Shown here: one piece after another, positions 42,402 to 59,345 of the stretch
Layout of the letters: each line of letters opens with the position of its first letter
Numbering within the stretch: the stretch's first letter is position 1
NCBI RefSeq assembly: GCF_003633755.1
Contig: NZ_RBIL01000002.1
Location: 1,178,001 to 1,242,000, forward strand
DNA: 64,000 nucleotides
Direction of reading: 5' to 3'
Origin: Solirubrobacter pauli
Lineage (GTDB): Bacteria > Actinomycetota > Thermoleophilia > Solirubrobacterales > Solirubrobacteraceae
Program-made: the position numbers and the translations under genes
Notes under the pieces: model-generated
The model's database searches: none
What the model was told of the DNA's origin: nothing
Seen by the model: only the letters and a program-made list of their open reading frames with translations

Positions 42402-43328
42402 TTGACCCTCCAACAGCTCCGGTACTTCCTGGCCACCGCCCGGCACGGCTCGTTCGCCGGAGCGGCCGACGAGCTGCTGCTCAAGCAGCCGTCCGTGGCC
42501 GAGCAGATCCGGCGGCTCGAGGCCGAGCTCGGGGTGCCGTTGTTCGCGCGCACCAAGCGCCGGCTGACGCTGACCGCGGCGGGCGATGCGCTGCGGCCGT
42601 ACGCCGAGCAGGCGCTCGCGACCTGTCGAGACGGCGCCGACGCCGTCCGCGCGCACCGGACGCTCCGTGGCGGCGTCGCCTCGTTCGGGCTCCCGCGCAA
42701 CGCCGAGCTGTACGCGCTCACCGACCTGGCGGCCGAGATGCACGCGCGCCACCCGCTGGTCGGCATGCGGCTGATCGGCCAGAACTCGGCGGAGGTGGCC
42801 GAGGCGATCCGTGGCGGCGCGCTGGAAGCCGGGCTCGTGGTGCTGCCGGTCGACGACGAGGGCCTGGACATCGAGCCGGTCATCCGCGACGAGGTGCTCT
42901 ACGCGACGGCGGACGCCGGCCGCGCGGCGACGCCGATGACGACCGACCGCCTGCTGGAGCAGCCGCTCGTCCTGTACGACGCCCACTACGGCAACGCCGA
43001 TCCGACCCGTCGCCAGCTCAACGAGCGCCTCCAGCAGCACGGCGGGCGGCTGGAGCCGCACATCGAGGTCGAGTACCTGGCGGGCGCGCTGCGGCTGGCG
43101 GCGCAGGGCGTGGGGGACACGATCGTGGCGCGTGCGGCCCTGGATGCCGGCTACCTGCCCGAGGACCTGCACACGACGCCGTTCGCCGAGCCGCTGTACG
43201 ACACGCTGGCCGTCGCCAAGCAGCGCAACCTGCCCCTCTCGCCGGCGACGCGCGAGCTCGTCTCGATCGCGCTCGAGCGGCTCGCCGCGTTCGATCGCGC
43301 CCGGAACCGGACCATTCCGACGGTGTGA
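42402..43328 (+). CDS. LysR-family transcriptional regulator
   Basis: A 308-residue LysR protein. It starts LTLQQLRYFLATARHGSFAGAADELLLKQPSVAEQIRRLEAELGVPLFART in segments, the standard winged HTH, followed by an effector domain. The predicted start is TTG; no ATG or GTG is nearer to the conserved start, and GAAGG lies upstream. It is divergent from the HisD-like gene and its operon, which it probably controls in response to the substrate or an intermediate. Its TGA stop overlaps the GTG of the next gene (the RTX-like protein), though that gene is functionally unrelated. Confidence 0.88.
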   Translation: MTLQQLRYFLATARHGSFAGAADELLLKQPSVAEQIRRLEAELGVPLFARTKRRLTLTAAGDALRPYAEQALATCRDGADAVRAHRTLRGGVASFGLPRNAELYALTDLAAEMHARHPLVGMRLIGQNSAEVAEAIRGGALEAGLVVLPVDDEGLDIEPVIRDEVLYATADAGRAATPMTTDRLLEQPLVLYDAHYGNADPTRRQLNERLQQHGGRLEPHIEVEYLAGALRLAAQGVGDTIVARAALDAGYLPEDLHTTPFAEPLYDTLAVAKQRNLPLSPATRELVSIALERLAAFDRARNRTIPTV

Positions 43329-44713
43329 ATGCAATGCTCCGAGCCATGACGTTCTGCCGGACCCTGCTCCTCACCGTGGCCGCGTGGGCCGTCTTCGCCG
43401 CTACCGCCCAGGCGGGCACCATCTCCGCCTCCGGCACCACGATCACCTTCCGGGCGGGTCCGGGCGAGGCGAACTTCTTCACCGTCAACTGGGGCAACTC
43501 CAGCGCCGGGCCGGACTTCGTGCCGACGTTCGACGACCACGTCGACATCCAGTACAGCCCGGGCTCGGGGTGCGAGGACTTCGCCGGCGGCGTCGCGGTC
43601 ACGTGCACGTCGGCGGGCACCAACCCGACGATCCTCGTCTACCTCGGCGACGGCAACGACTTCGCGCAGTCGATCAACGACCGCGCGGTCGGCCACAGCG
43701 TCAGCTTCTTCGGCGAGGACGGCGACGACGACTTCGACAGCGACGGCAGCTCCGACGTGCTCGACGGCGGCCCCGGCAACGACGAGTTCTCGCCCGACGA
43801 CAACGACCCCGGCCCGGGTGACGTCGTCCGCGGCGGCCCGGGCATCGACACGCTGCAGACCGGCAACCCGACCGGCGCGATGGGGCCGATCACGGTCGCC
43901 TTCGACGACCAGCCCAACGACGGCTACCCCGGCGAGGGCGACAACTACGCGAGCGACCTCGAGAACCTCTCGGCGACCTCGACGTCGCCGTCGATCAACT
44001 TCGTCGGCAACGACGCGCCGAACGTCGTCCAGCTGCGTAGCGAGTCGGCGGACACCGTCAAGGGCCTCGGCGGCAACGACACGATCGACGGCGCCAACGG
44101 CAACGACCAGCTCGACGGCGGCGACGGCGACGACACCATCTACGGCGGCGGCAACGACGACGTGATCGTCGGCGGACCGGGCACGGACTCGCTCTCGGGC
44201 GAGGGCTCGGCGAGCGGCCTGTTCATCTCCGTGGCGGGCAACGACACGATCGACGCGCGCGACGGCATCCGCGAGGCGCTCAACTGCGGCCCCGGCGCCG
44301 ACACGGCGATCGTCGACGCGCTGGACGTGGTCCCGCAGGACCCGGGCTCGCTGTGCGAGGCGGTGGACCGGCCGCTCGCGGTCGTGGCCGCCACCGTGCG
44401 GTCGTCGAGCCTGAAGGCGCAGAGCCGCAAGCGCGTCTCGTTGAAGCTCGCGTGCCCGCAGGGCGTCGCCACCTGCACGGGCAAGGTGACGCTCAAGACC
44501 GCATCGAAGGTCCGCGTCGGCCGCAAGCGCGCGGTCATCACGATCGGCAGCGCGAAGTACTCGATCGCCGCGGGCGCGTCCAAGTCCGTGCGGGTGAACC
44601 TGTCCGCGAAGGCGCGCTCGCTGCTCAAGCGGTCCAAGAAGGTCCGCGTGAAGCTCACGGTCGCGCCCACGTCGGGCGCCGCGGCGACGAAGACGGTCAC
44701 GCTCAAGCGCTGA
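43325..44713 (+). CDS. Secreted RTX-like calcium-binding repeat protein
   Basis: A 462-residue exported protein. The signal peptide (MTFCRTLLLTVAAWAVFAATAQA) is followed by acidic Gly/Asp-rich repeats, FFGEDGDDDFDSDGSSDVLDGGPGNDE and KGLGGNDTIDGANGNDQLDGGDGDDTIYGGGNDD in segments. These match the RTX nonapeptide GGxGxDxxx, which coils round Ca2+. The C-terminal 110 residues form a Lys/Arg-rich beta domain ending VTLKR, seen also on the subtilase tail (KVTLKKKATL). GTG at 43325 is the longest start; ATGs at 43334 and 43346 are alternatives, and 43346 gives a tidy signal peptide. Role unknown: structural or adhesive is likely. It is not exported with type I genes. Confidence 0.85.
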   Translation: MNAMLRAMTFCRTLLLTVAAWAVFAATAQAGTISASGTTITFRAGPGEANFFTVNWGNSSAGPDFVPTFDDHVDIQYSPGSGCEDFAGGVAVTCTSAGTNPTILVYLGDGNDFAQSINDRAVGHSVSFFGEDGDDDFDSDGSSDVLDGGPGNDEFSPDDNDPGPGDVVRGGPGIDTLQTGNPTGAMGPITVAFDDQPNDGYPGEGDNYASDLENLSATSTSPSINFVGNDAPNVVQLRSESADTVKGLGGNDTIDGANGNDQLDGGDGDDTIYGGGNDDVIVGGPGTDSLSGEGSASGLFISVAGNDTIDARDGIREALNCGPGADTAIVDALDVVPQDPGSLCEAVDRPLAVVAATVRSSSLKAQSRKRVSLKLACPQGVATCTGKVTLKTASKVRVGRKRAVITIGSAKYSIAAGASKSVRVNLSAKARSLLKRSKKVRVKLTVAPTSGAAATKTVTLKR

Positions 44714-44728
44714 CTAACATCGGAGGCC

Positions 44729-45187
44729 ATGGCCAGCACCGAGGCGCCGCGATGGACGGCGTACGCGAACGAACGCCTCGCCGGTGAGGGCTACCGGCGC
44801 GGCGGCGGCCGTGCGGCCGTGATCGACCTGCTCGACGCGCAGGAGTGCGCCCTGTCGGCGCAGGAGATCGAGGACCGCCTTCGCGAAGGTGAGCGCCGGG
44901 TCGGCCGCGCGACGGTCTACCGCGTCCTCGACGAGCTGGTCGAGCTGCACCTGCTGTCCAAGGTCGAGATCGGCGACGGGGTCGCGCGCTTCGAGCGCGT
45001 GTTCCCCGAAGGCACGCATCATCACCACCACTTCGTGTGCCGCGACTGCGGGAGGCTGATCCCCTTCGAGGACGACGAGCTCGAGCGCGTCCTGCGGCGG
45101 ATCGCACGCCGCGAGGGCGTGGCCATGGACGGGCACGACGTGACGCTGCGCGGGCGCTGCCCCGACTGCGCGCCTGCCGCCGGCTAG
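44729..45187 (+). CDS. Fur-family metalloregulator (Fur/Zur-type)
   Basis: A 152-residue FUR-family repressor. The DNA-binding domain has GYRRGGGRAAVIDLLDAQECALSAQEIEDRLREGERRVGRATVYRVLDEL in segments, with the recognition helix before VYRVLDEL. The metal site reads GTHHHHHFVCRDCGRL (His97-101, Cys104, Cys107) with a second CPDC (144-147), so the structural Zn site is complete. It is close to the zinc-type transporter cluster at 50.8-54.1 kb and could be its Zur; proof would need a site match, and I see no clear Fur box. The TAACAT hexamer 8 nt upstream may make it leaderless. The stop shares CTAG with the convergent MocR gene. Confidence 0.9.
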   Translation: MASTEAPRWTAYANERLAGEGYRRGGGRAAVIDLLDAQECALSAQEIEDRLREGERRVGRATVYRVLDELVELHLLSKVEIGDGVARFERVFPEGTHHHHHFVCRDCGRLIPFEDDELERVLRRIARREGVAMDGHDVTLRGRCPDCAPAAG

Positions 45188-46620
45188 TCAGGCCCCAGCA
45201 CGTCGCAGAGCGCGCTCAACGCCGCTCCCCATCCGCTGTCGGAGACCGCGGAGAAGTTCACGACGAGCCCGTCCGGCCCGGGTGCCTTCCGTTCCGCGTC
45301 TGCGTGGCGGAAGGCGGCCAGCCCACTGACCATCAGCCCCCGGTCGGCCGCGGCCCGGAGGACCGACGCCTCGGTTCCGGGAGCGAGCTCCAGCACCGCC
45401 TGCAGCCCCGCCGCCATGCCCAGCATCCGCACCGCAGGCGCCTGCCGCGCGAGCGCCGCGGCCAACTCCTTCCGCCGGCGCCCGTACCGCTGTCGCCGTG
45501 CGCGGACGTGGCGGTCGAAGGCCCCGGAGGTGATGAGCTCCGCGAGCGTCAGCTGGTCCAGCGCGCTGACCCGCTCGACGGGGCCCTTCGCGGCCGCCAC
45601 GTCCGCGAGCAGCGGCTCGGGAACCACCATCCAGCCGACACGGAGCGCGGGGGCCAGTGACTTGCTCGCGGTGCCGAAGTAGACGACCCGCTCGGGATCG
45701 AGGCCTTGCAGCGCGCCCACCGGCCTGCGGTCGTAGCGGAACTCCCCGTCGTAGTCATCCTCGAGGATCACGCCGCCCGTCGAGCGTGCCCAGTCGATCG
45801 CCGCCGCCCGGCGCTCGGGCGCCAGCGCGACCCCCGTCGGGAACTGATGCGCGGGTGTGAGCAGCACGGCGTCCACAGCGGTCCGGCGTGCCAACTCGTC
45901 GGTCCGTGCACCGTCCTCGTCGACCTCGAGCGGCGGGATGCGGAGGCCGGCGTCGGTCAGCAGCGTGCGGTACAGATCCAAGCCGTAGGACTCGACCGCC
46001 ACCGCCCGGGCACCACGTGCCGCGAGTGCCCGGGCGGTCAGCCCCAGCCCGTGGTGGAACCCCGAGCAGATCACGATCCGCTCGGGCTCGGCGTGCACGC
46101 CGCGGACGCGGGACAGGTAGTCGGCGAGTGCGGCGCGCAGCTCCGCGCGGCCCAGCGGGTCCCCGTAGCCGAACGCGGTCGGTGAAGCCACCGCCAGAAC
46201 GCGACGAGCGGCGGCCAGCCACTGCGTGCGTGGGAAGTCCGCGAAGTCCTCCGCGCCGGGCAGCAGCCGGTGCGCGGGGCGGTGACGACCGGATCGAGCG
46301 GGTGGGGGAGCGGTGGCGGCCGAGCCCGGCGTGGCGCGCTCGGCCACGCGCGTGCCGGACCCTTGGCGGGCCGTCAGCCAGCCTTCGGCCACCAGCTCGG
46401 CGTAGCACTCCGTGACGGTGCTGCGGGCGAGGCCGAGGTCCGCCGCGAGCGTGCGGGACGCGGGCAGACGAGTCCCCGGCGCCAGCCGTCCCGAGCGCAC
46501 GGCGTCGCGCAGCGCGTTGGTCAGGCCGGCGCGCCGCCCGGGCCCTGTCAGCTCCAGATGGAGGTCGACGCCGGAGCCGGCGTCACGTCCCGGCGCGGAA
46601 TTGGTCCGGGAACTCGGCAT
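45184..46620 (-). CDS. MocR/PdxR-type regulator (GntR HTH fused to aminotransferase)
   Basis: A 478-residue MocR protein. A GntR winged helix (LTNALRDAVRSGRLAPGTRLPASRTLAADLGLARSTVTECYAEL in segments) precedes a fold-type-I aminotransferase domain. The PLP lysine lies in YFGTASKSLAPALRVGW. The acid that pairs with the PLP ring nitrogen is in DDYDGEFRYD. These proteins sense PLP or amino compounds. It is divergent from an MFS gene and an epimerase across 46 bp and likely controls them. I use the ATG giving MPSSRTNSAPG, because a TAAGGT hexamer 8 nt before it would otherwise be inside the gene. Confidence 0.9.
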   Translation of the reverse strand: MPSSRTNSAPGRDAGSGVDLHLELTGPGRRAGLTNALRDAVRSGRLAPGTRLPASRTLAADLGLARSTVTECYAELVAEGWLTARQGSGTRVAERATPGSAATAPPPARSGRHRPAHRLLPGAEDFADFPRTQWLAAARRVLAVASPTAFGYGDPLGRAELRAALADYLSRVRGVHAEPERIVICSGFHHGLGLTARALAARGARAVAVESYGLDLYRTLLTDAGLRIPPLEVDEDGARTDELARRTAVDAVLLTPAHQFPTGVALAPERRAAAIDWARSTGGVILEDDYDGEFRYDRRPVGALQGLDPERVVYFGTASKSLAPALRVGWMVVPEPLLADVAAAKGPVERVSALDQLTLAELITSGAFDRHVRARRQRYGRRRKELAAALARQAPAVRMLGMAAGLQAVLELAPGTEASVLRAAADRGLMVSGLAAFRHADAERKAPGPDGLVVNFSAVSDSGWGAALSALCDVLGPD

Positions 46621-48711: not shown

Positions 48712-49389
48712 TCAACTGTAGGGGTTGCTCGGCTGCGCGACCTCGGTCACGGCACTCGCCGAGACCTTCAGGTCGGTGCCGGGCGTCCCGATCAGCGTGC
48801 CCTTCACGTGGACCCACGTGTCGACCGGGAGGTTCGGCGCGCCGGTGACCTTGGCGCTGAACGCGTTCGCGTCCGCGGCGCAGCAGCCGACCATGAACCG
48901 GGACACCTCGAGCTCACCGTTGCCGTCGAGCTGCTTGGAGACGAACGCGACGAAGTCGACGGGCGTGCCCTCGCCGAGCTCGTTGTAGTCGGCGTACTCC
49001 TTGGACTCGGCCGCCCAGGCGATCTCGTACAGGCGGACGTCGCCCTCGATCGCGGTCTCCAGCGGTGCGGCGACGTTCTTGGTGCGCTTGTTCTCGACCG
49101 CGAGCGCGCCGAGCGACGGTGCCGGGACCATCAGCGTGAGCAGGATCGGCGCCACGAGCAATCCGTTCGCGCCGAGCTCACGCACGGACGGCGCACGCTT
49201 GTGCCCGCGGGCGCCCCACAGGTAGGCGAGCGCGACGAGCGGCAGCGTGAGCGCACCGAGCGACACCACCCACCACGTCTTCGGCCCGATGTACGTGGTC
49301 GCGCGCCCGCTCACCCAGAGATAGATGAAGAACACGCCCCACGCCGCGATCGCCACCGCTCGGAGCGTGCGCGTCCAGTCCCACCTCAT
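48712..49389 (-). CDS. TIGR03943/DUF1980-family putative permease subunit
   Basis: A 225-residue protein. Three hydrophobic segments occupy the first 100 residues (AIAAWGVFFIYLWV and two more), with a soluble C-terminal domain from about 110 that holds RFMVGCCAADA, a Cys-Cys pair conserved in this family. The Bacillus homologue pairs with a COG0701 permease next to zinc-regulated genes, and here the same pair occurs: its ATG overlaps the permease stop by 4 bp (ATGA). It is probably a subunit of an ion or metal translocating complex. The operon is transcribed from the box-B promoter. Its stop codon abuts that of the 52-residue peptide gene. Confidence 0.85.
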   Translation of the reverse strand: MRWDWTRTLRAVAIAAWGVFFIYLWVSGRATTYIGPKTWWVVSLGALTLPLVALAYLWGARGHKRAPSVRELGANGLLVAPILLTLMVPAPSLGALAVENKRTKNVAAPLETAIEGDVRLYEIAWAAESKEYADYNELGEGTPVDFVAFVSKQLDGNGELEVSRFMVGCCAADANAFSAKVTGAPNLPVDTWVHVKGTLIGTPGTDLKVSASAVTEVAQPSNPYS

Positions 49390-50732
49390 GAGATCACCGC
49401 CTGGAAGAGCATGGAGCCCGTCACCACGACGGGCACGATCACCAACGCCAACTTGACGACGAAGGCACGGCCGAAGGTGCCGCCGTACAGCAGCACCAGC
49501 TTCGTGTCGAGCACCGGCCCGGCCGCCAGGAACGCGAGCTGCGGACCGGGCGGGAACTGGATGAACGACACCGCGACGAAGGCGTCCGCCTCCGAGCACA
49601 AGGACAGGAAGAACGCCAGCACGATCATCAGCAGCGCGCCGACGAACGGGGACGTGAGCACTCCGGTGAAGACGCTCTGCGGCACGATCGTCTGCAGGGC
49701 GGCGGCGATCGCCGCGCCGAGCACGATGAACTTGCCCATCAGCAACAGGTCCGACATCAGGTGGTCGACGAACCCGCGCAGCTTGTTGTGGCTGTGGTCG
49801 TGCTCGTGGCTGGGCTCGGACTTCCTGGCGTGGGCGACCAGGTTGCCCCCGCCCCGGCGCGCGATCAGCGTGCCGGCGACGATCGCGAGCAGGAGGCCGA
49901 GGCCGAGCCGGCCGAGCACCATCTCGGTCGCGCCGCGCCCGGAGTAGGCGACGGCGGTCGAGAACAGCACGATCGGGTTGATCACCGGCGCCGCGAGCAT
50001 GAAGGCGATGCCGGCGGCGGGATGGACGCCACGCACGATCAGGCGTCGCGCGACGGGCACGGAGCCGCACTCGCATACAGGCATCGCCACGCCCGACAGC
50101 GCGACGGCCGGGATCTGCAGCGGGAGCGGGAGGCGCGCGATCCGCTCGAACCAGCGGGCCGGGACGAACACCTCGATCGCCGCGGAGACCGCCGCTCCCA
50201 GGAGCACGAACGGCAGCGCCTCCAGCGCGATCGACGTGCCGATGACGAGGAACGTCTGCATCCGCGCGGCCTCCCCGACTTCACCGACGCGGCCGGCGAC
50301 GATCACCAGCGCGAGCAGCGCCAGGATCGCGACGAGCAGCGGACGGCTGACCTTGCCGCCGTCCCGGGGGTGGGCGCGCAGGCCCCAGGCGCCGATCACC
50401 GCCAGCGACAGCAGGCCGGGCAGCGCCAGGCCGACGCGCTCGGAGTTGTCGGTGAACGACTGGGTGAGCGCGACGGTCGCGACCGTGCCGGCCACGAGCG
50501 CGGCGGTGAAGGCCGCGCCGCCGAGGCGTCCGAGCTTGCCCGCGGCGAACGCCAACACCAGGAACGGGAGCCAGCACCACAGGTGGAACGGGACGTAGCC
50601 CAGCGAGAAGCCGGTCGCGCGCCACGTGTCTTGCCACGCGTACGGCGACAGCACCGTGACGGCGCCCAGCAGCGCGATTCCCGGCGCGAGCACGCGTGCT
50701 CGCCGGCCGACCCTCATCGAAATCGTCCCCAT
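49386..50732 (-). CDS. COG0701 permease with CxC and His-rich loops
   Basis: A 448-residue polytopic protein of the COG0701 (UPF0718/ArsP-like) permease family. The hallmark is AMPVCECGSVPVARR with Cys220 and Cys222, repeated in kind by LSLCSEADAFVAVSF in the second half. A cytoplasmic loop SEPSHEHDHSHNK (His309-315) is an obvious metal-binding stretch. The partner subunit TIGR03943 is coupled by a 4-bp overlap. The start is the first ATG; a second ATG (50717) follows after five codons. The -10 TAGGCT (50744-50749, minus strand) leaves a leader of only a few bases. The BlaI-type box B lies 2 bp upstream of it. A metal-linked, repressible exporter or importer is likely. Confidence 0.88.
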   Translation of the reverse strand: MGTISMRVGRRARVLAPGIALLGAVTVLSPYAWQDTWRATGFSLGYVPFHLWCWLPFLVLAFAAGKLGRLGGAAFTAALVAGTVATVALTQSFTDNSERVGLALPGLLSLAVIGAWGLRAHPRDGGKVSRPLLVAILALLALVIVAGRVGEVGEAARMQTFLVIGTSIALEALPFVLLGAAVSAAIEVFVPARWFERIARLPLPLQIPAVALSGVAMPVCECGSVPVARRLIVRGVHPAAGIAFMLAAPVINPIVLFSTAVAYSGRGATEMVLGRLGLGLLLAIVAGTLIARRGGGNLVAHARKSEPSHEHDHSHNKLRGFVDHLMSDLLLMGKFIVLGAAIAAALQTIVPQSVFTGVLTSPFVGALLMIVLAFFLSLCSEADAFVAVSFIQFPPGPQLAFLAAGPVLDTKLVLLYGGTFGRAFVVKLALVIVPVVVTGSMLFQAVIS

Positions 50733-50751
50733 AACCGGCGGCGAGCCTAGT

Positions 50752-50766
50752 CCGACATCATGTAGG
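50752..50766 (-). promoter_or_regulatory. BlaI-type box B, upstream of the COG0701 permease operon
   Basis: Plus-strand CCGACAT-C-ATGTAGG, read on the minus strand as CCTACATGATGTCGG. It is followed after 2 bp by the TAGGCT -10 of the permease operon, the spacing seen at boxes A and E. Confidence 0.65.
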
Positions 50767-50877
50767 GGTCAAGGGCGAGACCCGTTAGCTGGACGTCTGT
50801 ACGGCCAAATTGGTGTTCCTAGCGGTTGTCGGACCAAATACTCGCGCCCACGTTCCCGAGTCGCTAGCCTAGTGGGA

Positions 50878-51702
50878 ATGAGTCTCATCGGTGTGTACGC
50901 CTTCGAGCAGCGGGCGCTGCTCGAGGTGCTGCTCGTGAGCGTGGGCGCCGGGCTGCTCGGCACGTGGATCGTGCTGCGCGGGCTGGCGTTCTACACGCAT
51001 GCGGTGGCGGCCGCCGCATTCCCTGGGCTGGTGCTCGCGGCCGGGCTGTCCTTCCCACCGATGGCGGGGGCGCTCGGCACGGGCGCGGTCGTCGCGGCGG
51101 GCGTCGGTGGGCTCTCGACGCGCCGGCGGGCGCGCTACGACGTGGCGACGGCGCTGGCCCTCGTCGGCGCGCTCGTGGTGGGCGTGGTGCTCGCCTCGAA
51201 CGTGTTCCACTCGGGCGCGCAGGTCGACTCGCTGCTGTTCGGCAGCCTGTTCGCGCTGACCGACACGGACCTCGTGTTGGGCGCCGTAGCGTCGATTCTT
51301 GCTTTGGCGGGGACGCTCGCGCTTGGCCCACGCTGGTTGGCGGTCGGGTTCGACGCGAGCGGCGCGAGGGCCGTCGGCGTGCGCTCGAAGGCGCCCGACC
51401 TCGTGTTGCTCGCGCTGGTCGGCTTCGCGTCCGTGGCGACGCTCGCCGCCGTCGGCGCCCTGCTCGCCACCGCGTTGCTCGTCGTCCCCGCGGCCACGGC
51501 GCGGCTGTGGACGAACCGGCTGCTCCCGTGGCAGTGCCTGAGCGTCGTGCTCGTGGCGCTGGAAGGGCTGGCCGGTGTGTGGCTCGCCGTGCGCACGAAC
51601 GCCCCGCCCGGGGCGACGGTGGCTGCGCTCGGTGGCGGCGTGTTCCTGTTGTCGGTCTTTGCTAATGAGATCTTGTCGCGAAATGGTCGTGAGAATGCGT
51701 AA
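50878..51702 (+). CDS. Metal (Zn/Mn-type) ABC transporter permease 1
   Basis: A 274-residue ABC-3 family (ZnuB/MntB-like) permease. It has about eight helices: VGAGLLGTWIVLRGLAFYTHAVAAAAFPGLVLA carries the family's cytoplasmic coupling region, and LLATALLVVPAATARLW lies near the C-terminus. The ATG lies 7 nt after TAGCCT, so the message is probably leaderless. It is the first gene of four: permease 1 - binding protein - ATPase - permease 2. Having two different permeases, one at each end, suggests a heterodimeric channel or recently duplicated specificity. No Zur or MntR box is evident in the short upstream region; an 11-bp palindrome ATGAGTCTCAT covers the start codon. Confidence 0.9.
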   Translation: MSLIGVYAFEQRALLEVLLVSVGAGLLGTWIVLRGLAFYTHAVAAAAFPGLVLAAGLSFPPMAGALGTGAVVAAGVGGLSTRRRARYDVATALALVGALVVGVVLASNVFHSGAQVDSLLFGSLFALTDTDLVLGAVASILALAGTLALGPRWLAVGFDASGARAVGVRSKAPDLVLLALVGFASVATLAAVGALLATALLVVPAATARLWTNRLLPWQCLSVVLVALEGLAGVWLAVRTNAPPGATVAALGGGVFLLSVFANEILSRNGRENA

Positions 51703-52681
51703 GTCAGTGATCCTGCTCCTCGCCCTGCCCCTGCTCGTCACCGCGTGTGGGGGCGAGGACGAAGGCGGCGCCCCGGCCCGTTCCGGCCCCGCCGAGCGTC
51801 CCGTCGTGGTCGCCACGACGACGCAGCTCGGGGACGTCGTCCGCCAGGTCGCGGGCGACGCCGCCGAGGTGCACCAGGTGCTGCAGGCCAACACCGATCC
51901 GCACGAGTACGAGCCGCGGCCGGACGACGTGAAGGCCGTGGCGGGCGCGAAGGTCGTCTTCGAGTCGGGCAACGCGCTCGACCACTGGATGGAGGAGCTG
52001 GTCGAGCAGGCGGGCGGCAGCCCCACCGAGGTGGAGATCGCGCCCGACCACACGCCGCACAAGGTCGAGGGCGAGCACCACCAGGAAGGCGACGACGAGC
52101 ACGGGCACGAGGAGTCCGAGCTCGACCCGCACTGGTGGCACGACCCGCGCAACGTCGAGGCGGCCATCCCGGTGATCGAGGCGCAGCTGGCCAAGGCGGC
52201 GCCCGCCAACGCGGCGACCTACAAGGCGAACGCCGCCGCCTACCTCGAGAAGGTGCAGACGCTCGACCGGGGCATCGAGACGTGCATGAGCGCCGTGCCG
52301 GCCGCCGAGCGCAAGCTGGTCACGAGCCACGACGCGTTCGGCTACTTCACCGCCCGCTACGGGATCACCGTCGTCGGCGCCGCGATCCCGTCGCAGTCGA
52401 CCGAGGCGCAGCCGTCCGCGGGCGAGATCGCCAAGCTCGCGGACGTCGTCCGCCGCGAAGGCGTGCGGGCGATCTTCCCGGAGAGCTCGATCAACCCACA
52501 GCTGGCCGAGACGCTGGCGCGCCAGACCGGCGCGAAGGCCGACTACGTCCTCTACGGCGACTCGCTCGGCCCCGAGGGCTCGCCCGGCGCGACCTACCTC
52601 GGCATGGAGGCCGCGAACGCCGACGCGATGGTCAAGGGCTTCACGGGAGGCGAGCGGGGATGCACGATCGCCGGCCTGTGA
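51695..52681 (+). CDS. Metal ABC transporter substrate-binding lipoprotein (ZnuA-like)
   Basis: A 328-residue cluster-9 metal-binding protein. The lipobox LVTAC carries the lipidated Cys18. Metal ligands expected in this family are visible: His70 in TDPHEYEP, His146/149 in the loop, a later His in TSHDAFGYF, and an acidic residue in FPESSI. The loop at about 119-149 is His/Glu/Asp-rich (DHTPHKVEGEHHQEGDDEHGHEE), the trait that marks zinc-type ZnuA proteins. The ATG at 51695 overlaps the permease stop; 51683 is an in-frame alternative. Zinc is the likely ion; manganese is possible. Confidence 0.92.
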   Translation: MRKSVILLLALPLLVTACGGEDEGGAPARSGPAERPVVVATTTQLGDVVRQVAGDAAEVHQVLQANTDPHEYEPRPDDVKAVAGAKVVFESGNALDHWMEELVEQAGGSPTEVEIAPDHTPHKVEGEHHQEGDDEHGHEESELDPHWWHDPRNVEAAIPVIEAQLAKAAPANAATYKANAAAYLEKVQTLDRGIETCMSAVPAAERKLVTSHDAFGYFTARYGITVVGAAIPSQSTEAQPSAGEIAKLADVVRREGVRAIFPESSINPQLAETLARQTGAKADYVLYGDSLGPEGSPGATYLGMEAANADAMVKGFTGGERGCTIAGL

Positions 52682-53328
52682 TCGCGGCGCGCGAGCTGGC
52701 CGTCGGCTATCCGGGCGGACCGGTCGTGCTGTCGGACCTCACCTTCGCGGTCGCGCCGGGTGAGCGCGTCGGCGTGCTCGGGCCCAACGGCGGCGGCAAG
52801 ACGACGCTGATGCGCGCGCTGCTGGGCGAGCTCGAGCCGCGCGCCGGCACGCTGGTCGTGGAAGGCCGGCCGGGCACCGTCCCGCAGACCGACCGCTCGC
52901 GGCTCGACTACCCCGTGTCCGCCCTGGACGTCGTCCTGATGGGGGCGCTGTCGCGCAGCCCGTGGTGGCGGCGCCCCGGCCGGTCCGAGCGCGCGGCCGC
53001 GTTGGCGGCGCTCGGGCGCGTCGGCCTGGCCGACCGCGCGAGGACGACCTTCGGCGAGCTGTCCGGCGGTCAGCGCCAGCGCGTCCTCGTCGCCCGCGCG
53101 CTGCTCCAGGACGCCGACATCGTGCTCTTCGACGAGCCGTTCACCGGGCTCGACGCGGCGAGCACCGACCGGCTGATGGCGCTGATCGACGACCTCGCCG
53201 GGGAAGGTCGCTGCGTGCTCGTCTCCACGCACGACGTCGCGCAGGCCGGCGCCTGGGATCACGTCCTGCGCGTCGATCGCCGGATGCTGGACTACGGCCC
53301 GCCCGAGCCGGTGCTCGTCCATGCTTGA
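52660..53328 (+). CDS. Metal ABC transporter ATPase (ZnuC-like)
   Basis: A 222-residue ABC ATPase. Walker A is GPNGGGKTT (41-49), the Q-loop is VPQTD (74-78), the signature is LSGGQRQR (134-141), Walker B is IVLFDEPF (154-161) and the H-loop is STHD (189-192). The ATG is preceded by a GGGAGGCGAGCGGGG ribosome region and overlaps the znuA-like gene by 22 bp. A GTG six codons later is an alternative. It energises the permease pair encoded on either side. The 3' end overlaps permease 2 by 8 bp, so the cluster is translationally coupled. Confidence 0.93.
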   Translation: MHDRRPVIAARELAVGYPGGPVVLSDLTFAVAPGERVGVLGPNGGGKTTLMRALLGELEPRAGTLVVEGRPGTVPQTDRSRLDYPVSALDVVLMGALSRSPWWRRPGRSERAAALAALGRVGLADRARTTFGELSGGQRQRVLVARALLQDADIVLFDEPFTGLDAASTDRLMALIDDLAGEGRCVLVSTHDVAQAGAWDHVLRVDRRMLDYGPPEPVLVHA

Positions 53329-54142
53329 CGCGCTGCTCGAGCCGTGGCACGAGCCGATCCTGCGCGAGGCGTTGCTCGAGGTCGTGTTCGTCGGGCTGGC
53401 GTGCGGCGCGCTCGGCGTCTGGGTGGTGCTCTACGGGCGCGCCTACAGCGCCGAGTCGCTCTCGCACGCGATGTTCCCGGGGCTCGTGGTGGCGGCGCTG
53501 ATCGGCGTGCCGGTCGTGCTCGGCGGCGCGGTCGGGCTGGTCGTCGCGGCGTTGGCGATCGCGGCCGCCGGGCGGGTGCGCACCCTCGGAGCCGACAACG
53601 CGGTGGCGGTGGTGATCACGAGCCTGCTGGGTCTCGGGACGCTCCTGGCGCTGTCGGCCGACTCGCCACCCGGCCTCGGCGCGCTGCTGTTCGGCGACGT
53701 CCTGGCGACGAGCCCTTCGGGCCTGCTGCTCGCGGGTGGGCTCGCCGCCCTGGTCCTCGCGGGATCGTGGGTGGCGTACCCGCGCCTGCTCGCGGTCGGC
53801 TTCGACCCGGGCAGCGCGCGGGCGCTGGGCCTGCGGGCGTACAGCGCGGAGGCCACGCTCGCCGTCCTGCTGACGCTCGCCGTGCTCGTGGGCGTGCAGG
53901 CGCTCGGGAACCTGTTGGTCGTGGCCGCGCTGATCGCGCCGGCCGTGGTCGCGGGCACGTTCACGCGGCGGGTGCCGCCGATGATCGTCGCGGCGTGCGC
54001 GGTGGGCGTGGCGTGCGGCGTCGGCGGGCTGTACCTCTCCTACTACGCGGGCGTGGCGGCGGGCGCGGCGATCGCCGGGCTGCTCGTGAGCGCGGCGGCG
54101 ACCGCCGCGGGGCTGAAGCAGATCCACACCGTCGCCGTCTAG
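53321..54142 (+). CDS. Metal ABC transporter permease 2
   Basis: A 273-residue ABC-3 permease, clearly related to permease 1 but distinct: VFVGLACGALGVWVVLYGRAYSAESLSHAMFPGLVVAAL corresponds to its coupling region, and QALGNLLVVAALIAPAVVAGTFTRRVPP to its C-terminal half. It overlaps the ATPase gene by 8 bp. It closes the four-gene operon. Downstream, 88 bp hold the box-C palindrome before the convergent M56 gene. It is the only convergent junction in this window with real intergenic space. Confidence 0.9.
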   Translation: MLDALLEPWHEPILREALLEVVFVGLACGALGVWVVLYGRAYSAESLSHAMFPGLVVAALIGVPVVLGGAVGLVVAALAIAAAGRVRTLGADNAVAVVITSLLGLGTLLALSADSPPGLGALLFGDVLATSPSGLLLAGGLAALVLAGSWVAYPRLLAVGFDPGSARALGLRAYSAEATLAVLLTLAVLVGVQALGNLLVVAALIAPAVVAGTFTRRVPPMIVAACAVGVACGVGGLYLSYYAGVAAGAAIAGLLVSAAATAAGLKQIHTVAV

Positions 54143-54230: not shown

Positions 54231-55178
54231 CTACACGACGTCTGAGGTCTGGCACGTGTGCGGCGTGCCGAGCCGGTGCTTCTCGTGGTAGCCCGCATGG
54301 GCGGCGAAGGGGAGTGCGAGCGCGGCCGTGACCACCAGCGCGGCCATCGCCGGGGCGAGCGCCACGAGGCCGGGGTGGGGGCGCGGAGCCTTGGCCCCCG
54401 GGTCGGCTTCGAGCAGGAGGCGGGCCCGCCGGGTGACGACGCCCCCGCCGAGGGAGAGCGCCGGTGCGGCGAACGCACCGCGGGCGGCCTTGCAGATCGC
54501 GCTCGCGAGCACGGCCGGCTCGTGGCGCTGGGCGAGCGCGTAGCTGTCCGCGTGGCGCTCGAGCGCGAACGTCAGCTCGCGCGCGGCCGCGGTCGTCCCC
54601 GGGAGGAACCGGCCGACCGCCCGCGCGAGCTCGCCCGCCACGAGCAGGTACCGGTGGCGGAGAGCGATGTGGCCGCGCTCGTGGTCGAGCCCCGCGCGCA
54701 GCTCGGCGTCGTCGAGCTCGACGAGCGCGCCCGCGGACACGACCACCTGCGGGCGGCGCAGGCCGGCCGCCGCGACGAGCAGCGCGCCGTCCGACAGGAC
54801 GACGCTGCCACCGGGGCCGGGGCCGATCGCGGTGTCACGGACGAGCCCGCGCACGCGCCGCGCGGCGACCACGAGCCCGTACGCGCTGACCAGCAGCGAG
54901 CCGGCGAGCGCCAGCGCGGGCAGAGCGAAGACGGCGTCCGTGACCGTGTGGCTGGACACCGCGCCGACGCACCACGCGCCGGACGGCTCGAGCGGACCGG
55001 CAACCGGCAGGTACACCTCGACCGCCACGGCCACCCCGACCGACGCGAGCGCACGCAGCAGCAGGGCGCTGAGCCAGATCGCGCCGACGAACCCCGCGGG
55101 CGCGCGATCCAGCCGGAGCACGTGCGGGAGCGCGATCGCGACCGCAAGCAGCCCGGCGGCGACGGCCAGCAGCGTCAC
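54231..55178 (-). CDS. M56 (BlaR1/MecR1-like) membrane metallopeptidase
   Basis: A 315-residue protein with several membrane segments and a zinc-peptidase motif HERGH (His166-Glu167-His170), then LERHADSYAL, which supplies the third ligand region. It lacks the extracellular penicillin-binding sensor of BlaR1, so it senses something else. Its GTG start overlaps the BlaI stop (GTGA), so the pair is coupled. In the BlaR1/BlaI model, the protease cleaves the repressor on signal. The C-terminus ends HTCQTSDVV. Given the neighbours, a metal-related signal is plausible. This is an inference. Confidence 0.88.
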   Translation of the reverse strand: MTLLAVAAGLLAVAIALPHVLRLDRAPAGFVGAIWLSALLLRALASVGVAVAVEVYLPVAGPLEPSGAWCVGAVSSHTVTDAVFALPALALAGSLLVSAYGLVVAARRVRGLVRDTAIGPGPGGSVVLSDGALLVAAAGLRRPQVVVSAGALVELDDAELRAGLDHERGHIALRHRYLLVAGELARAVGRFLPGTTAAARELTFALERHADSYALAQRHEPAVLASAICKAARGAFAAPALSLGGGVVTRRARLLLEADPGAKAPRPHPGLVALAPAMAALVVTAALALPFAAHAGYHEKHRLGTPHTCQTSDVV

Positions 55179-55555
55179 GCGCGCCGGTCGCGCGCCTGGC
55201 GCGCGAGCTCCTCGAGCTCGGACAGCTCCTCGGGGCGCAGGCCGCCGATGATGCTGGCCAGCGCCGCCTGGCGCGCGTCGCTCGAAGCGCCCGCCAGCGT
55301 GCGGCGGATGCTGCCGGACAGGTACTCGGCCTCGGTGACGCGCGGCCGGTACACGAACCCGCGACCTTCGCGCTTGCGCTCGAGCAAGCCGCGGGTCGCG
55401 AGCCGGTTGAGCACGGTCTGGACGGTGTTGTACGCGCCCTGGTAGCGCGGCGGGAGCTCCTCGCGCACCTGCTCGACCGTCCCCGAGCCGACACGCCACA
55501 GCGCGGCCATCACCTGGCTCTGCAGCTCACCTTGGATCGACTGGGAGTCAGCCAC
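55175..55555 (-). CDS. BlaI/MecI/CopY-family transcriptional repressor
   Basis: A 126-residue winged-helix repressor. The N-terminal DNA-binding part has LQSQVMAALWRVGSGTVEQVREELPP and AYNTVQTVLNRLATRGLLERKREGRGFVYRPRV, the pattern shared by BlaI, MecI and CopY, whose cleavage site lies just after this domain. The GTG is 6 nt after TATACT (minus strand), and a BlaI-type box lies 3 bp upstream of that, so it is leaderless and autoregulated. In known BlaI systems the box is a TACA-N(2)-TGTA-type palindrome, which fits the boxes here. Proposed targets are the permease operon, the 52-residue peptide, itself and the molybdoenzyme transcript. Confidence 0.92.
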   Translation of the reverse strand: MADSQSIQGELQSQVMAALWRVGSGTVEQVREELPPRYQGAYNTVQTVLNRLATRGLLERKREGRGFVYRPRVTEAEYLSGSIRRTLAGASSDARQAALASIIGGLRPEELSELEELARQARDRRA

Positions 55556-55793: not shown

Positions 55794-58085
55794 ATGGACC
55801 GGATCGCTGACCCTTGGGGCCCGCGCACCCCGTACGGCCGCGGCGAGCGCTGGCCAGTGCGCGTGGACGAGCATGTGACCGACGAGGCCGACGCCTGGGT
55901 GCCGACGGCGTCGATCCTGCACTCGAACGGGGACGGCATCGACGTCGCCGTGCGCGACGGCCGGATGGTCGGCGTGCGCGGACGCGCCGACAGCCGCGTC
56001 AACCACGGCCGGCTCGGGCCGAAGGACCTGTTCGGCTGGCAGGCGAACAACTCGCGGGACCGGCTCACCACGCCGCTCATCCGCCGCGACGGCGAGCTCG
56101 TCGAGTGCGACTGGGACACCGCGATGGACGCCATGGTCGCGCGCTCCCGCCAGCTCCTCGACGAGGTCGGGCCGAGCGCGCTCGGGCTCTACACCAGCGG
56201 GCAGCTCTTCCTCGAGGAGTACTACACGCTCGCGGTTATCGCCCGGGCCGGCCTCGGCACGAACCACCTGGACGGCAACACGCGCCTGTGCACCGCCACG
56301 GCGGCGGAGGCGCTCAAGGAGAGCTTCGGGTGCGACGGGCAGCCGGGCTCGTACACCGACGTCGACCACACCGACGTGCTCCTCCTCGTCGGCCACAACG
56401 TCGCGGCGACGCAGGTCACGTTGTGGGCGCGCATGCTCGACCGGCTCGCGGGCCCGCACCCGCCGAAGCTGATCGTCATCGACCCGCGACGGACGCCGCC
56501 GGCCGAGCACGCCGACGTGCACCTGGCGCCGCGGTCGGGCACGAACGTCGCGCTGCTCAACGCGATCCTGCACGAGCTGATCGCGCGCGACGCCGTGGAC
56601 CGCGCGTTCGTCGACGCCCGGACGGTCGGCTTCGAGCAGATGGCCGAGATCGTCGCGCCATGCACGCCGGAGTGGGCGGCGGAGATCTGCGGGGTGGAGG
56701 CGAGCGCGATCCGCGCGGCGGCGGACATCCTCGCCGGTCACGACCGGATCCTGTCCACCTGTCTCCAAGGCGTCTACCAATCGCACCAGGCGACCGCGGC
56801 CGGCGTGCAGGTCAACAACATCAACCTCCTTCGAGGCGCGCTGGGCCGGCCGGGCGCGGGCGTGCTGCAGATGAACGGGCAGCCGACCGCCGAGAACACG
56901 CGCGAGTGCGGCGCCAACGGCGACCTGCCGGCGTTCCGGAACTGGGCCAACGATGACCACGTCGCGGAGCTGGCGGAGCTGTGGAAGGTCGACGTGGCCA
57001 CGATCCCGCACTTCGGACCGCCGACGCACGCGATGCAGATCTTCCGCTACGCCGAGCAGGGCTCGATCCGCTGGCTGTGGATCACGGCCACCAACCCCGC
57101 GGTGTCGCTGCCCGACCTCGCGCGGATCCGCCGCATCCTCGCGCGGGAGGACCTGTTCGTCGTCGTCCAGGACCTGTTCCTCACCGAGACGGCCGAGTTC
57201 GCGGACGTCGTGCTGCCGGCCGGCACCTGGGGTGAGAAGGAGGGCACGTTCACGAACGCCGACCGCACCGTCCACCACTCCGACAAGGCCGTCGAGCCAC
57301 CGGGCCAGGCCCGAGGCGACCTGGACATCATGCTCGACTACGCCCGCCGGATGGACTTCCGGGACCGTGACGGCGCGCCGCTGATCAAGTGGCACGACGC
57401 CGAGTCGGCGTTCCGCGCCTGGCAGGCCTGCAGCGCGGGCCGACCCTGCGACTACACGGGCCTGTCCTACGAGAAGCTCCGCGCGGGCGGCGAGACGCAG
57501 TGGCCCTGCAACGAGCGCTACCCGGACGGCCGCGAGCGGCTCTACGACGAGGGCGACTTCTGGGCGGCCGCGGACATCGCCGAGACCTACGGCAAGGACC
57601 TGCTGACGGGCGTCGACGTCGAGGAGAGCGACTATCGCGCCTTCAACCCCGAAGGGCGGGCGATGTTCAAGGGCGCGGAGTACCTGCCGCCCGCTGACGC
57701 GCCCGACGACGAGTTCCCGCTGCGGCTGAACACGGGCCGCAGCCTCTACCACTTCCACACGCGGACGAAGACCGGCCGCGCGCCGGAGCTGGCGGCGGCC
57801 GCGCCGGACGTGTGGGTCGAGGTCTCGGCCGACGACGCGCGGGCGTACGGGGTGGGCGAGGGCGACGTGGTCGACGTGATCTCGGCGCGCGGCCGCGTGC
57901 GCGCGCCGGTGCGCGTGACGGGCATCCGCGAGGGCGTCGTGTTCATCCCGTTCCACTACGGCTACTGGGACGCGCCGGACCGGGATGACCGCGCCGCCAA
58001 CGAGCTGACGATCACCGCCTGGGACGCCTGCTCGAAGCAGCCGATCTTCAAGACCTCGGCGTGCCGGCTGGAGCGGGTCGCATGA
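55794..58085 (+). CDS. Molybdopterin oxidoreductase lacking the [4Fe-4S] cysteines
   Basis: A 763-residue DMSO-reductase-superfamily enzyme. The conserved core is present: NTRLCTATA with Cys166 as the probable Mo ligand, QMNGQPTAENTRECGANGDLPAF, WGEKEGTFTNADRTV, and a C-terminal molybdopterin dinucleotide domain starting LRLNTGRSLYHFHTRTKTGR. Relatives have a CxxCxxxC cluster motif near the N-terminus; here the aligned stretch ASILHSNGDGID has Ser40, His43 and Asp47, and the distal GRLCPKG site reads GRLGPKD. No other cysteine is available, so the cluster appears to be lost. It is coupled by ATGA to the next gene. A BlaI-type box and a hairpin precede it. The substrate is unknown (formate or nitrate-reductase-like). 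Confidence 0.9.
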   Translation: MDRIADPWGPRTPYGRGERWPVRVDEHVTDEADAWVPTASILHSNGDGIDVAVRDGRMVGVRGRADSRVNHGRLGPKDLFGWQANNSRDRLTTPLIRRDGELVECDWDTAMDAMVARSRQLLDEVGPSALGLYTSGQLFLEEYYTLAVIARAGLGTNHLDGNTRLCTATAAEALKESFGCDGQPGSYTDVDHTDVLLLVGHNVAATQVTLWARMLDRLAGPHPPKLIVIDPRRTPPAEHADVHLAPRSGTNVALLNAILHELIARDAVDRAFVDARTVGFEQMAEIVAPCTPEWAAEICGVEASAIRAAADILAGHDRILSTCLQGVYQSHQATAAGVQVNNINLLRGALGRPGAGVLQMNGQPTAENTRECGANGDLPAFRNWANDDHVAELAELWKVDVATIPHFGPPTHAMQIFRYAEQGSIRWLWITATNPAVSLPDLARIRRILAREDLFVVVQDLFLTETAEFADVVLPAGTWGEKEGTFTNADRTVHHSDKAVEPPGQARGDLDIMLDYARRMDFRDRDGAPLIKWHDAESAFRAWQACSAGRPCDYTGLSYEKLRAGGETQWPCNERYPDGRERLYDEGDFWAAADIAETYGKDLLTGVDVEESDYRAFNPEGRAMFKGAEYLPPADAPDDEFPLRLNTGRSLYHFHTRTKTGRAPELAAAAPDVWVEVSADDARAYGVGEGDVVDVISARGRVRAPVRVTGIREGVVFIPFHYGYWDAPDRDDRAANELTITAWDACSKQPIFKTSACRLERVA

Positions 58086-58501
58086 AGCCCGCGCTGGACG
58101 AGGCCCTCGCGGCCGAGCGCGCGTTGAGCCACGCGCTGCGGGCGGTCGGCGAGCATCACCGCGACGACCACGACATCTTCCACATGACGCGGACGCTCGC
58201 CGCCTGGAGCGAGCGCAACGCGGAGCGGCTCGAGCGCTGCGGCGCCGAGGCGGGCGTCCCGCCGGAGGTCGTCTTCAACGACGGGCCGCTCGCGCTCGTG
58301 CTCGACCTACGCGACGTCCACCTCGTCGCGACACGCGCCTCCGTCGCCTGGACCGTGCTCGGCCAGGGCGCCCAAGCCGTCCGCGACGCCGAGCTGCTGG
58401 ACACGGTGACCGCGTCCCACCCCGAGACCATCCGTGCCATGCGCTGGGCCCTGCAACGCCTGAAGGAGGCGACCCCACAGCTGATCGCCGGCGAGCGCTA
58501 G
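58082..58501 (+). CDS. Helical hypothetical protein coupled to the molybdoenzyme
   Basis: A 139-residue, Ala/Glu/Arg-rich, apparently all-helical protein. It starts MKPALDEALAAERALSHALRAVGEHHRDDHDIFHMTRTLAAWSERN in segments; the clustered His/Asp/Glu (GEHHRDDHDIFH) is suggestive of a metal or four-helix-bundle protein, but I recognise no family. The ATG overlaps the molybdopterin enzyme stop (ATGA), so the products are made together. It could be a chaperone or an electron-transfer partner for the cluster-less enzyme. No function is claimed. Confidence 0.75.
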   Translation: MKPALDEALAAERALSHALRAVGEHHRDDHDIFHMTRTLAAWSERNAERLERCGAEAGVPPEVVFNDGPLALVLDLRDVHLVATRASVAWTVLGQGAQAVRDAELLDTVTASHPETIRAMRWALQRLKEATPQLIAGER

Positions 58502-58511
58502 GCTCGCCGCC

Positions 58512-59345
58512 ATGGACGTTCCGGCGCCGCTGGTGCGCGGCGCCGCCCTCCTGCGGTGCCCGGTCTGCTCGGCCCCGCTCCGGGTGCACGAGCGCTCACT
58601 CGTGTGCGACCAGCGCCACACCTACGACATCGCCCGCCACGGCCACGTCACCCTCGCCCGCGCCCCTGCCCCGGGAGACGACGCGCCCATGGTCGCCGCC
58701 CGCGCCGCGGTGTTCGACGCGGGCCACTACGCGCCCCTGACGACCGCGCTGGCCCGAGCCGCCGAGGAGTCCCTGAGCGACGGGCGCGTCGTCCTCGACA
58801 TCGGCGCGGGCACCGGCCACCATCTCGCGGGCGTGCTGCGCGCCTCGCCGGGCGCGCTCGGGTTCGCGCTGGACACGTCGCGGCCCGCGTTGCGGTTGGC
58901 GGCGCGGGCGCACCCGGAGATCGCCGCGGTGGTGGGTGACGTGTGGGAGGCGTTGCCGTTCCAGGACGGGGTCGTGGACCTCGCGCTCGTGGTGTTCGCA
59001 CCCCGCAACGGAGCCGAGATCGCGCGCGTGCTCGCCCCCGGCGGGACGGCCCTCGTCGTGATCCCCACGCCTGAGCATCTCGCGGAGCTCGCGCATCTGC
59101 ACGGTGTCCAGGTCGACCCGGAGAAGCCCGAGCGGCTCGAGCGCACGCTCGGCGCGCACCTCGCGCACGAGGCGACCACACGCGTGCGATGGACCATGGA
59201 GCTGTCGGCGGATGACGTCGAGCAGGTCATCCGCATGAGCCCGGCGGGCGCGCACCGCGGCGAGGGGGAGGCGCGCGCCACGACCGTCACCGGGTCGGTC
59301 GAGCTGCGGACCTACCGCTCACCAGACGTCCGCGGCGGCGGCTGA
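58512..59345 (+). CDS. RlmA-type rRNA guanine-N1 methyltransferase
   Basis: A 277-residue protein. A zinc finger at the N-terminus (LRCPVCSAPLRVHERSLVCDQRHTYDIARHGHV, CxxC...CxxxH) precedes a SAM-dependent methyltransferase domain with motif I VLDIGAGTGHHLAGVL. This is the RlmA/RrmA layout that methylates a guanine in the 23S rRNA hairpin; TlrB-like members give macrolide resistance in producers, so I do not assign the exact nucleotide. The ATG lies 7 nt after a TAGGCT that overlaps the preceding stop codon, so it is probably leaderless. The 3' end overlaps the convergent small ORF by 27 bp. Confidence 0.88.
   Translation: MDVPAPLVRGAALLRCPVCSAPLRVHERSLVCDQRHTYDIARHGHVTLARAPAPGDDAPMVAARAAVFDAGHYAPLTTALARAAEESLSDGRVVLDIGAGTGHHLAGVLRASPGALGFALDTSRPALRLAARAHPEIAAVVGDVWEALPFQDGVVDLALVVFAPRNGAEIARVLAPGGTALVVIPTPEHLAELAHLHGVQVDPEKPERLERTLGAHLAHEATTRVRWTMELSADDVEQVIRMSPAGAHRGEGEARATTVTGSVELRTYRSPDVRGGG

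Follow-up and report, generated by a model that had tools for sequence, protein, structure and literature searches.

In nearly all Cys-ligated Mo/W-bisMGD enzymes the N-terminal cluster serves as the gate for electrons; what, then, is an enzyme of this type that has kept its molybdenum ligand and lost every cysteine of the cluster? The question is raised by a gene on the forward strand of Solirubrobacter pauli at positions 55794–58085 of the window, the whole 64,000-nucleotide stretch of DNA (contig NZ_RBIL01000002.1) that was analyzed. Its open reading frame begins with ATG and encodes 763 residues, which Pfam, comparison with the nitrate reductase NapA, and 104 orthologues point to being a cluster-free Mo-bisMGD oxidoreductase of the MopB family; public orthologues are auto-annotated as "nitrate reductase". 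When the enzyme was aligned to D. desulfuricans NapA by phmmer, Ser40, His43, Asp47, and Gly75 faced NapA Cys13, Cys16, Cys20, and Cys47; Lys77, Asp78, and Cys166 faced Lys49, Gly50, and Cys140; and Thr167, Gln363, and Arg370 faced Met141, Gln346, and Arg354. The former CxxCxxxC motif thus reads Ser40-I-L-His43-S-N-G-Asp47 (55911–55934, + strand) and the former distal cysteine site Gly75-Pro76-Lys77-Asp78 (56016–56027, + strand), with GRLGPKD in place of GRLCxKG. Direct reading of the DNA placed the codons at 55911 (Ser40), 55920 (His43), 55932 (Asp47), 56016 (Gly75), and 56025 (Asp78), and both this reading and the NapA alignment agree with the initial annotation, which had assigned these residues to the cluster ligand sites.

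The same annotation had considered the molybdenum ligand kept and the remainder of the enzyme intact, and both points held. Cys166 (56289–56291, + strand; followed by Thr167) is the predicted Mo ligand from its position opposite NapA Cys140 and its conservation among orthologues. The Mo-cofactor domains score far above their Pfam cut-offs (Molybdopterin, 188.9 against 24 bits; Molydop_binding, 97.2 against 26.8 bits), whereas the Fe4S4 domain falls below its own (18.9 against 22.7 bits). The closest PDB relatives are NapA structures (2nap/2v45), matched over the whole length of the fold with a Z of 41 and 665–668 residues; with NapA and NasA/NarB the enzyme shares the Cys Mo ligand and the equivalents of Lys49, Gln346, and Arg354, but it differs from them in lacking Fe-S ligands, in having Thr where NapA has Met141, and in the addition of a ferritin-like partner. 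By these alignments it is a member of the NapA/Nas/Fdh-type Cys-ligated branch in which Gln363 and Arg370, channel residues of the NapA type, have been retained.

A genome scan of species returned 583 relatives, of which the best 80 of the 583 were all titled actinobacteria and were 65–78% identical to the window enzyme; additional copies were found in further genomes of the same phylum. The clade-wide counts given here refer to 104 full-length actinobacterial orthologues from independent genomes. None of them has any of the four cysteines of CxxCxxxC and the distal site (0-Cys enzymes), which sets them apart from the [4Fe-4S] MopB (CISM) enzymes and establishes, as had been proposed for checking by alignment, that the motif is lost throughout a clade. 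Position 40 is Ser in 76, Ala in 19, and Thr in 9 of these sequences, and position 75 is Gly or Asp, with one Glu, Asp75 being found in mycobacteria; His43, Asp47, Lys77, Asp78, and Cys166 are each present in 104/104. Among the three- and four-Cys relatives compared, positions 43 and 47 are Cys in 16/16, and the Cys166 equivalent is Cys in 18/18 relatives. Cys166, Thr167, Lys77, Gln363, and Arg370 are invariant in alignments of the family, as are the MGD-binding motifs. Sequencing error was rejected as the cause of the missing motif, because 104 orthologues from independent genomes agree, and so was chance, given that His43, Asp47, and Asp78 occur in every one.

A conserved substitute set of cysteines elsewhere in the protein, which the initial annotation had named as grounds for abandoning its claim, was looked for among the 104 orthologues, and no other Fe-S-type cysteine cluster was seen; the conserved cysteines (166, 299, 546, 552, and 572) are scattered, and most are shared with Cys-bearing relatives. 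Residues 33–95, which hold the former cluster site, form the best conserved stretch of the enzyme (79% mean pairwise identity), and this, together with a replacement fixed in 104 orthologues, argues against decay. The alignments identify the cluster loss as a selected, stable state, and the enzyme is very probably cluster-free. Because His/Asp-ligated Fe-S clusters exist, a degenerate cluster held by non-Cys ligands is conceivable.

How the cysteines were lost can be read from living relatives. The next homologues, at 37–42% identity, have all four cysteines. Closer relatives, about 59–62% identical, come from Deinococcus, Hymenobacter, Halomonas, Curtobacterium, one Streptomyces, and two more actinobacterial genomes, and these 3-Cys enzymes retain CxxCxxxC with a distal site that reads GRLGPKG, so that Gly75 is already present; a Staphylococcus saprophyticus relative (42% identical) likewise combines CxxCxxxC with GRLGPKG. 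The pattern with only the fourth Cys replaced was found at loci L014, L119, L126–L128, L130, L131, L133, and L136, and is absent from the window protein. In arsenite oxidase AioA, Cys21-X2-Cys24-X3-Cys28-X70-Ser99 binds a 3Fe-4S cluster (PMC3758308), and by analogy the 3-Cys relatives probably hold a [3Fe-4S] cluster as well, since they share CxxCxxxC and a replaced fourth Cys with AioA and the iodate reductase IdrA. The window protein differs from both in having no cluster Cys and no Rieske subunit, and in its Cys Mo ligand, which is absent in AioA. Besides the exchange of Cys40 for a small residue, the only fixed differences between the 0-Cys and 3-Cys groups are Pro7, His43 and Asp47 in place of Cys, and Asp78 in place of Gly.

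In a quick tree the 0-Cys group formed one clade (SH-aLRT 98) within a paraphyletic 3-Cys set. When the motif columns were masked, the 0-Cys sequences were no longer a single clade in the trees; a single 0-Cys clade was nevertheless unrejected by the masked data (p-AU 0.64), with the constrained tree 4.7 log units better. In the masked careful tree the root fell inside the 0-Cys group, which probably stems from the long outgroup branch. A single loss event for the 0-Cys group appears likely. The most economical reading, and one that we consider probable since the 3-Cys/distal-Gly state survives in relatives, is a loss in two steps: the distal Cys would have changed to Gly while CxxCxxxC stayed, likely with a [3Fe-4S] cluster, and the remaining three would then have given way, in a lineage of actinobacteria, to Ser/Ala/Thr, His, and Asp, with Asp78 becoming fixed.

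The gene immediately downstream (58082–58501, + strand) encodes a 139-residue protein whose start overlaps the enzyme stop by 4 bp (ATGA). The protein is an obligate partner of the enzyme: a homologue adjoins the enzyme gene in 84 of 86 loci, with the 4-bp overlap in 76, and no other conserved neighbour was found across the 86-locus sample. Its AF2 model (pLDDT 92) is a four-helix bundle that matches the bacterioferritin fold with a Z of 17.6 and an rmsd of 2.0 over 132 residues, a match of a predicted model that concerns fold only, and on that model we predict that the protein belongs to the ferritin-like superfamily. It resembles ferritin and bacterioferritin (and YciE/DUF892) in this predicted fold, but it has no detectable sequence relationship to them, is dedicated to a molybdoenzyme, and is not expected to carry a complete diiron ligand set. 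Profiles of Pfam, NCBIfam, and the PDB gave sub-threshold matches only, some of them to DUF2383, DUF892, and 2oh3, and a profile comparison of the partner family with E. coli bacterioferritin gave no match. The only residues invariant family-wide are L72, D75, L76, Q95, and Q133. Among the putative diiron positions E12 is conserved, but the window protein has T, N, and T where the family consensus reads D38, H46, and E91, so that a metal centre is not assured there.

The initial annotation had described this protein as His-rich and translationally coupled and had suggested that it might replace the role of the cluster. The two genes do overlap, by 4 bp; "His-rich" overstates the composition (about 7 His, 5%), and the partner family contains no invariant His. 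The proposed substitution finds no support and was rejected, because the partner also lies beside 3-Cys enzymes (in Deinococcus, Hymenobacter, Curtobacterium, and at L119), and two such enzymes, from Halomonas KO116 (L128) and Streptomyces BHT-5-2 (L131), carry it as a C-terminal fusion. Since 3-Cys enzymes carry it, two of them as fusions, the partner predates the cluster loss, and the fusions to the enzyme C-terminus speak for a physical subunit; that the protein is a physical partner of the enzyme can be held with high confidence.

The regulation of many family members points to stress. The mycobacterial SigF consensus GTTT-N15/16-GGGTA occurs in the 150 bp upstream of the gene in 32 of 121 members of the family, as against 28 of 803 other genes at the same loci, in a comparison that ignores kinship; no such box is present upstream of the window enzyme gene. 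The M. smegmatis SigF-dependent list includes MSMEG_2837, "nitrate reductase NarB", and MSMEG_2838, "conserved hypothetical", both lowered in the sigF mutant, with a listed GTTT-N16-GGGTA box 42 nt upstream (PMC4694148). An MspA probe picked out a close relative, G574, as the best genome and not M. smegmatis itself. In a close M. smegmatis relative (L140) a family gene that is followed by the partner carries exactly this GTTT-N16-GGGTA, 43 nt ahead of its ATG. MSMEG_2837/2838 resemble the module in being an adjacent SigF-dependent pair with a promoter box at a matching distance in the close relative, and on these indirect grounds they very likely are the enzyme and its partner; they differ in that MSMEG_2837 is annotated as a nitrate reductase, with cluster loss unmentioned in the excerpted passages. 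The enzyme appears to be part of a SigF/SigB-type general stress response in many actinobacteria.

An ordinary NarB/NasA-like nitrate reductase that tolerates the loss of its cluster, as the automatic annotation would have it, accords with the nearest solved relatives being NapA, with the match of Arg370 and Gln363 to NapA Arg354 and Gln346, and with some of the neighbouring genes. A gene of the HPP family, of which the Arabidopsis member AtNITR2;1 transports nitrite (PMC4137279), follows in the same orientation at 10 loci spanning the 0-Cys and 3-Cys subfamilies (five of one 0-Cys actinobacterial family, two of Deinococcus, and one each of Halomonas, Gloeothece, and Curtobacterium), and formate/nitrite-transporter genes are also among the neighbours; an HPP neighbour is absent at the window locus. 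The window enzyme, however, lies far under every NCBIfam nitrate reductase cut-off (NapA, 346.6 against 904 bits; NasC, 392 against 1100; NasA_Halo, 385 against 1000), and NapA Met141 is replaced by Thr167. Moreover, a study of M. smegmatis reports that deletion of narB, the presumed orthologue, had no effect on either nitrate assimilation or nitrate reductase activity, and also that narB transcript was undetected in the cultures tested (PMC7816997); the missing phenotype counts against a nitrate substrate, tempered by the missing expression. We consider an ordinary nitrate reductase unlikely, and a formate dehydrogenase-type enzyme far more so: the top NCBIfam score is that of Fdh-alpha (TIGR01591), but its 455 bits fall short of the cut-off of 666; the Halomonas copy has an fdhD gene nearby, but that gene precedes a true fdhF; and invariant Thr167 stands where formate dehydrogenases have His after Cys/Sec, which argues against formate. 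Non-catalytic MopB proteins that have lost the Mo cofactor do exist (PMC10100899), and the window enzyme might be such a scaffold or pseudo-enzyme, like FhcB or ActB; the invariance of Cys166, Lys77, the active-site Arg and Gln, and the MGD motifs, with very high conservation overall, makes this reading at least as improbable as formate, and the enzyme is in all likelihood a catalytically active Mo enzyme, as judged from these residues.

The vacated site itself admits another reading, in which His43, Asp47, and Asp78 bind a mononuclear metal such as Fe, Mn, or Zn as a one-electron relay or a structural plug; in mycobacteria Asp75 could join them. These three residues are invariant; two of them fall on former Cys ligands, and the third directly follows the conserved Lys of the fourth-Cys loop. 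Only Pro7 and the loss of Cys40 join them as fixed differences from the 3-Cys group. A salt-bridge or hydrogen-bond plug predicts an equal pattern, however; about 40% of columns are invariant in a 28-sequence alignment, so that invariance by itself argues little for a metal; and the AF2 model of the enzyme reaches a pLDDT of just 70. A metal site of this kind seems to us improbable. Still more doubtful is its most novel form, in which the Fe-S cluster would have been replaced, via a [3Fe-4S] intermediate, by a mononuclear His43/Asp47/Asp78 metal site that acts as an oxygen-tolerant electron relay, with the ferritin-like subunit docked, for general-stress use in many actinobacteria.

The explanation we favour, with moderate confidence, is a two-protein module composed of an active enzyme of the MopB (DMSO reductase) family and a small ferritin-like subunit, operating without an Fe-S relay. 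With all four cluster ligands lost, we infer that a different electron path is required. BisC and DorA are cluster-free enzymes, and DorA, TorA, and BisC resemble the window enzyme as MopB enzymes that function without an N-terminal cluster; they differ in their Ser Mo ligand and belong to another branch, whereas the window family is Cys-ligated and NapA/Nas/Fdh-like, with Cys166 in all members and TorA and bisC model scores far below cut-off for the window enzyme. By analogy to these enzymes, a soluble donor might reduce the Mo-pterin directly by two electrons, a mechanism that we put forward tentatively. An oxyanion or N/S-oxide-type substrate would then be reduced at Mo without an Fe-S relay, oxyanion reductase-like chemistry being a serious candidate that falls slightly short of an even chance, and the ferritin-like subunit would serve docking or assembly.

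Several other features were observed in the window and in related genomes. Downstream of the partner gene, 58512–59345 encodes an RlmA-like 23S rRNA guanine methyltransferase, whose best NCBIfam matches, Erm(32), MyrA, and ChrB of the macrolide-resistance type, are all below cut-off. Judged by their translations, 54231–55555 carries two overlapping genes, for a BlaI/MecI-type repressor and a membrane metallopeptidase, which diverge from the gene of the molybdoenzyme; 48712–54142 together with 44729–46620 forms an apparent zinc-homeostasis island (a Fur-type regulator, a GTPase-like protein, a two-gene permease pair, a ZnuA-like lipoprotein, an ABC ATPase, and two permeases); and 43325–44713 encodes a protein with GGxGxD-type repeats, RTX-like and calcium-binding. 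Elsewhere in the same genome (C1:3379207-3380880; L007, L008) lies a second MopB gene that contains a single in-frame TGA, flanked as ARI-TGA-H; this matches the selenocysteine-His site known from formate dehydrogenases, and the gene is a putative Sec-containing member of that family. On the Gloeothece plasmid Cy782201 (L129, 4001–7126) the module is apparently decayed, with the enzyme start missing and the enzyme unannotated as a CDS, the partner present as two split ORFs, and the HPP gene intact.

Searches of the open-access literature turned up no description of a cluster-free NapA-like family, and the alignments identify here a real cluster-free subfamily of Cys-ligated MopB enzymes that is undescribed there. 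Its living 4-Cys, 3-Cys, and 0-Cys relatives constitute a natural series for the loss of the cluster and its replacement, and an undescribed ferritin-like family gains a concrete partner. The annotation "nitrate reductase" (NarB) in actinobacteria, mycobacteria among them, is probably misleading, and the enzyme occurs widely, in many soil bacteria.
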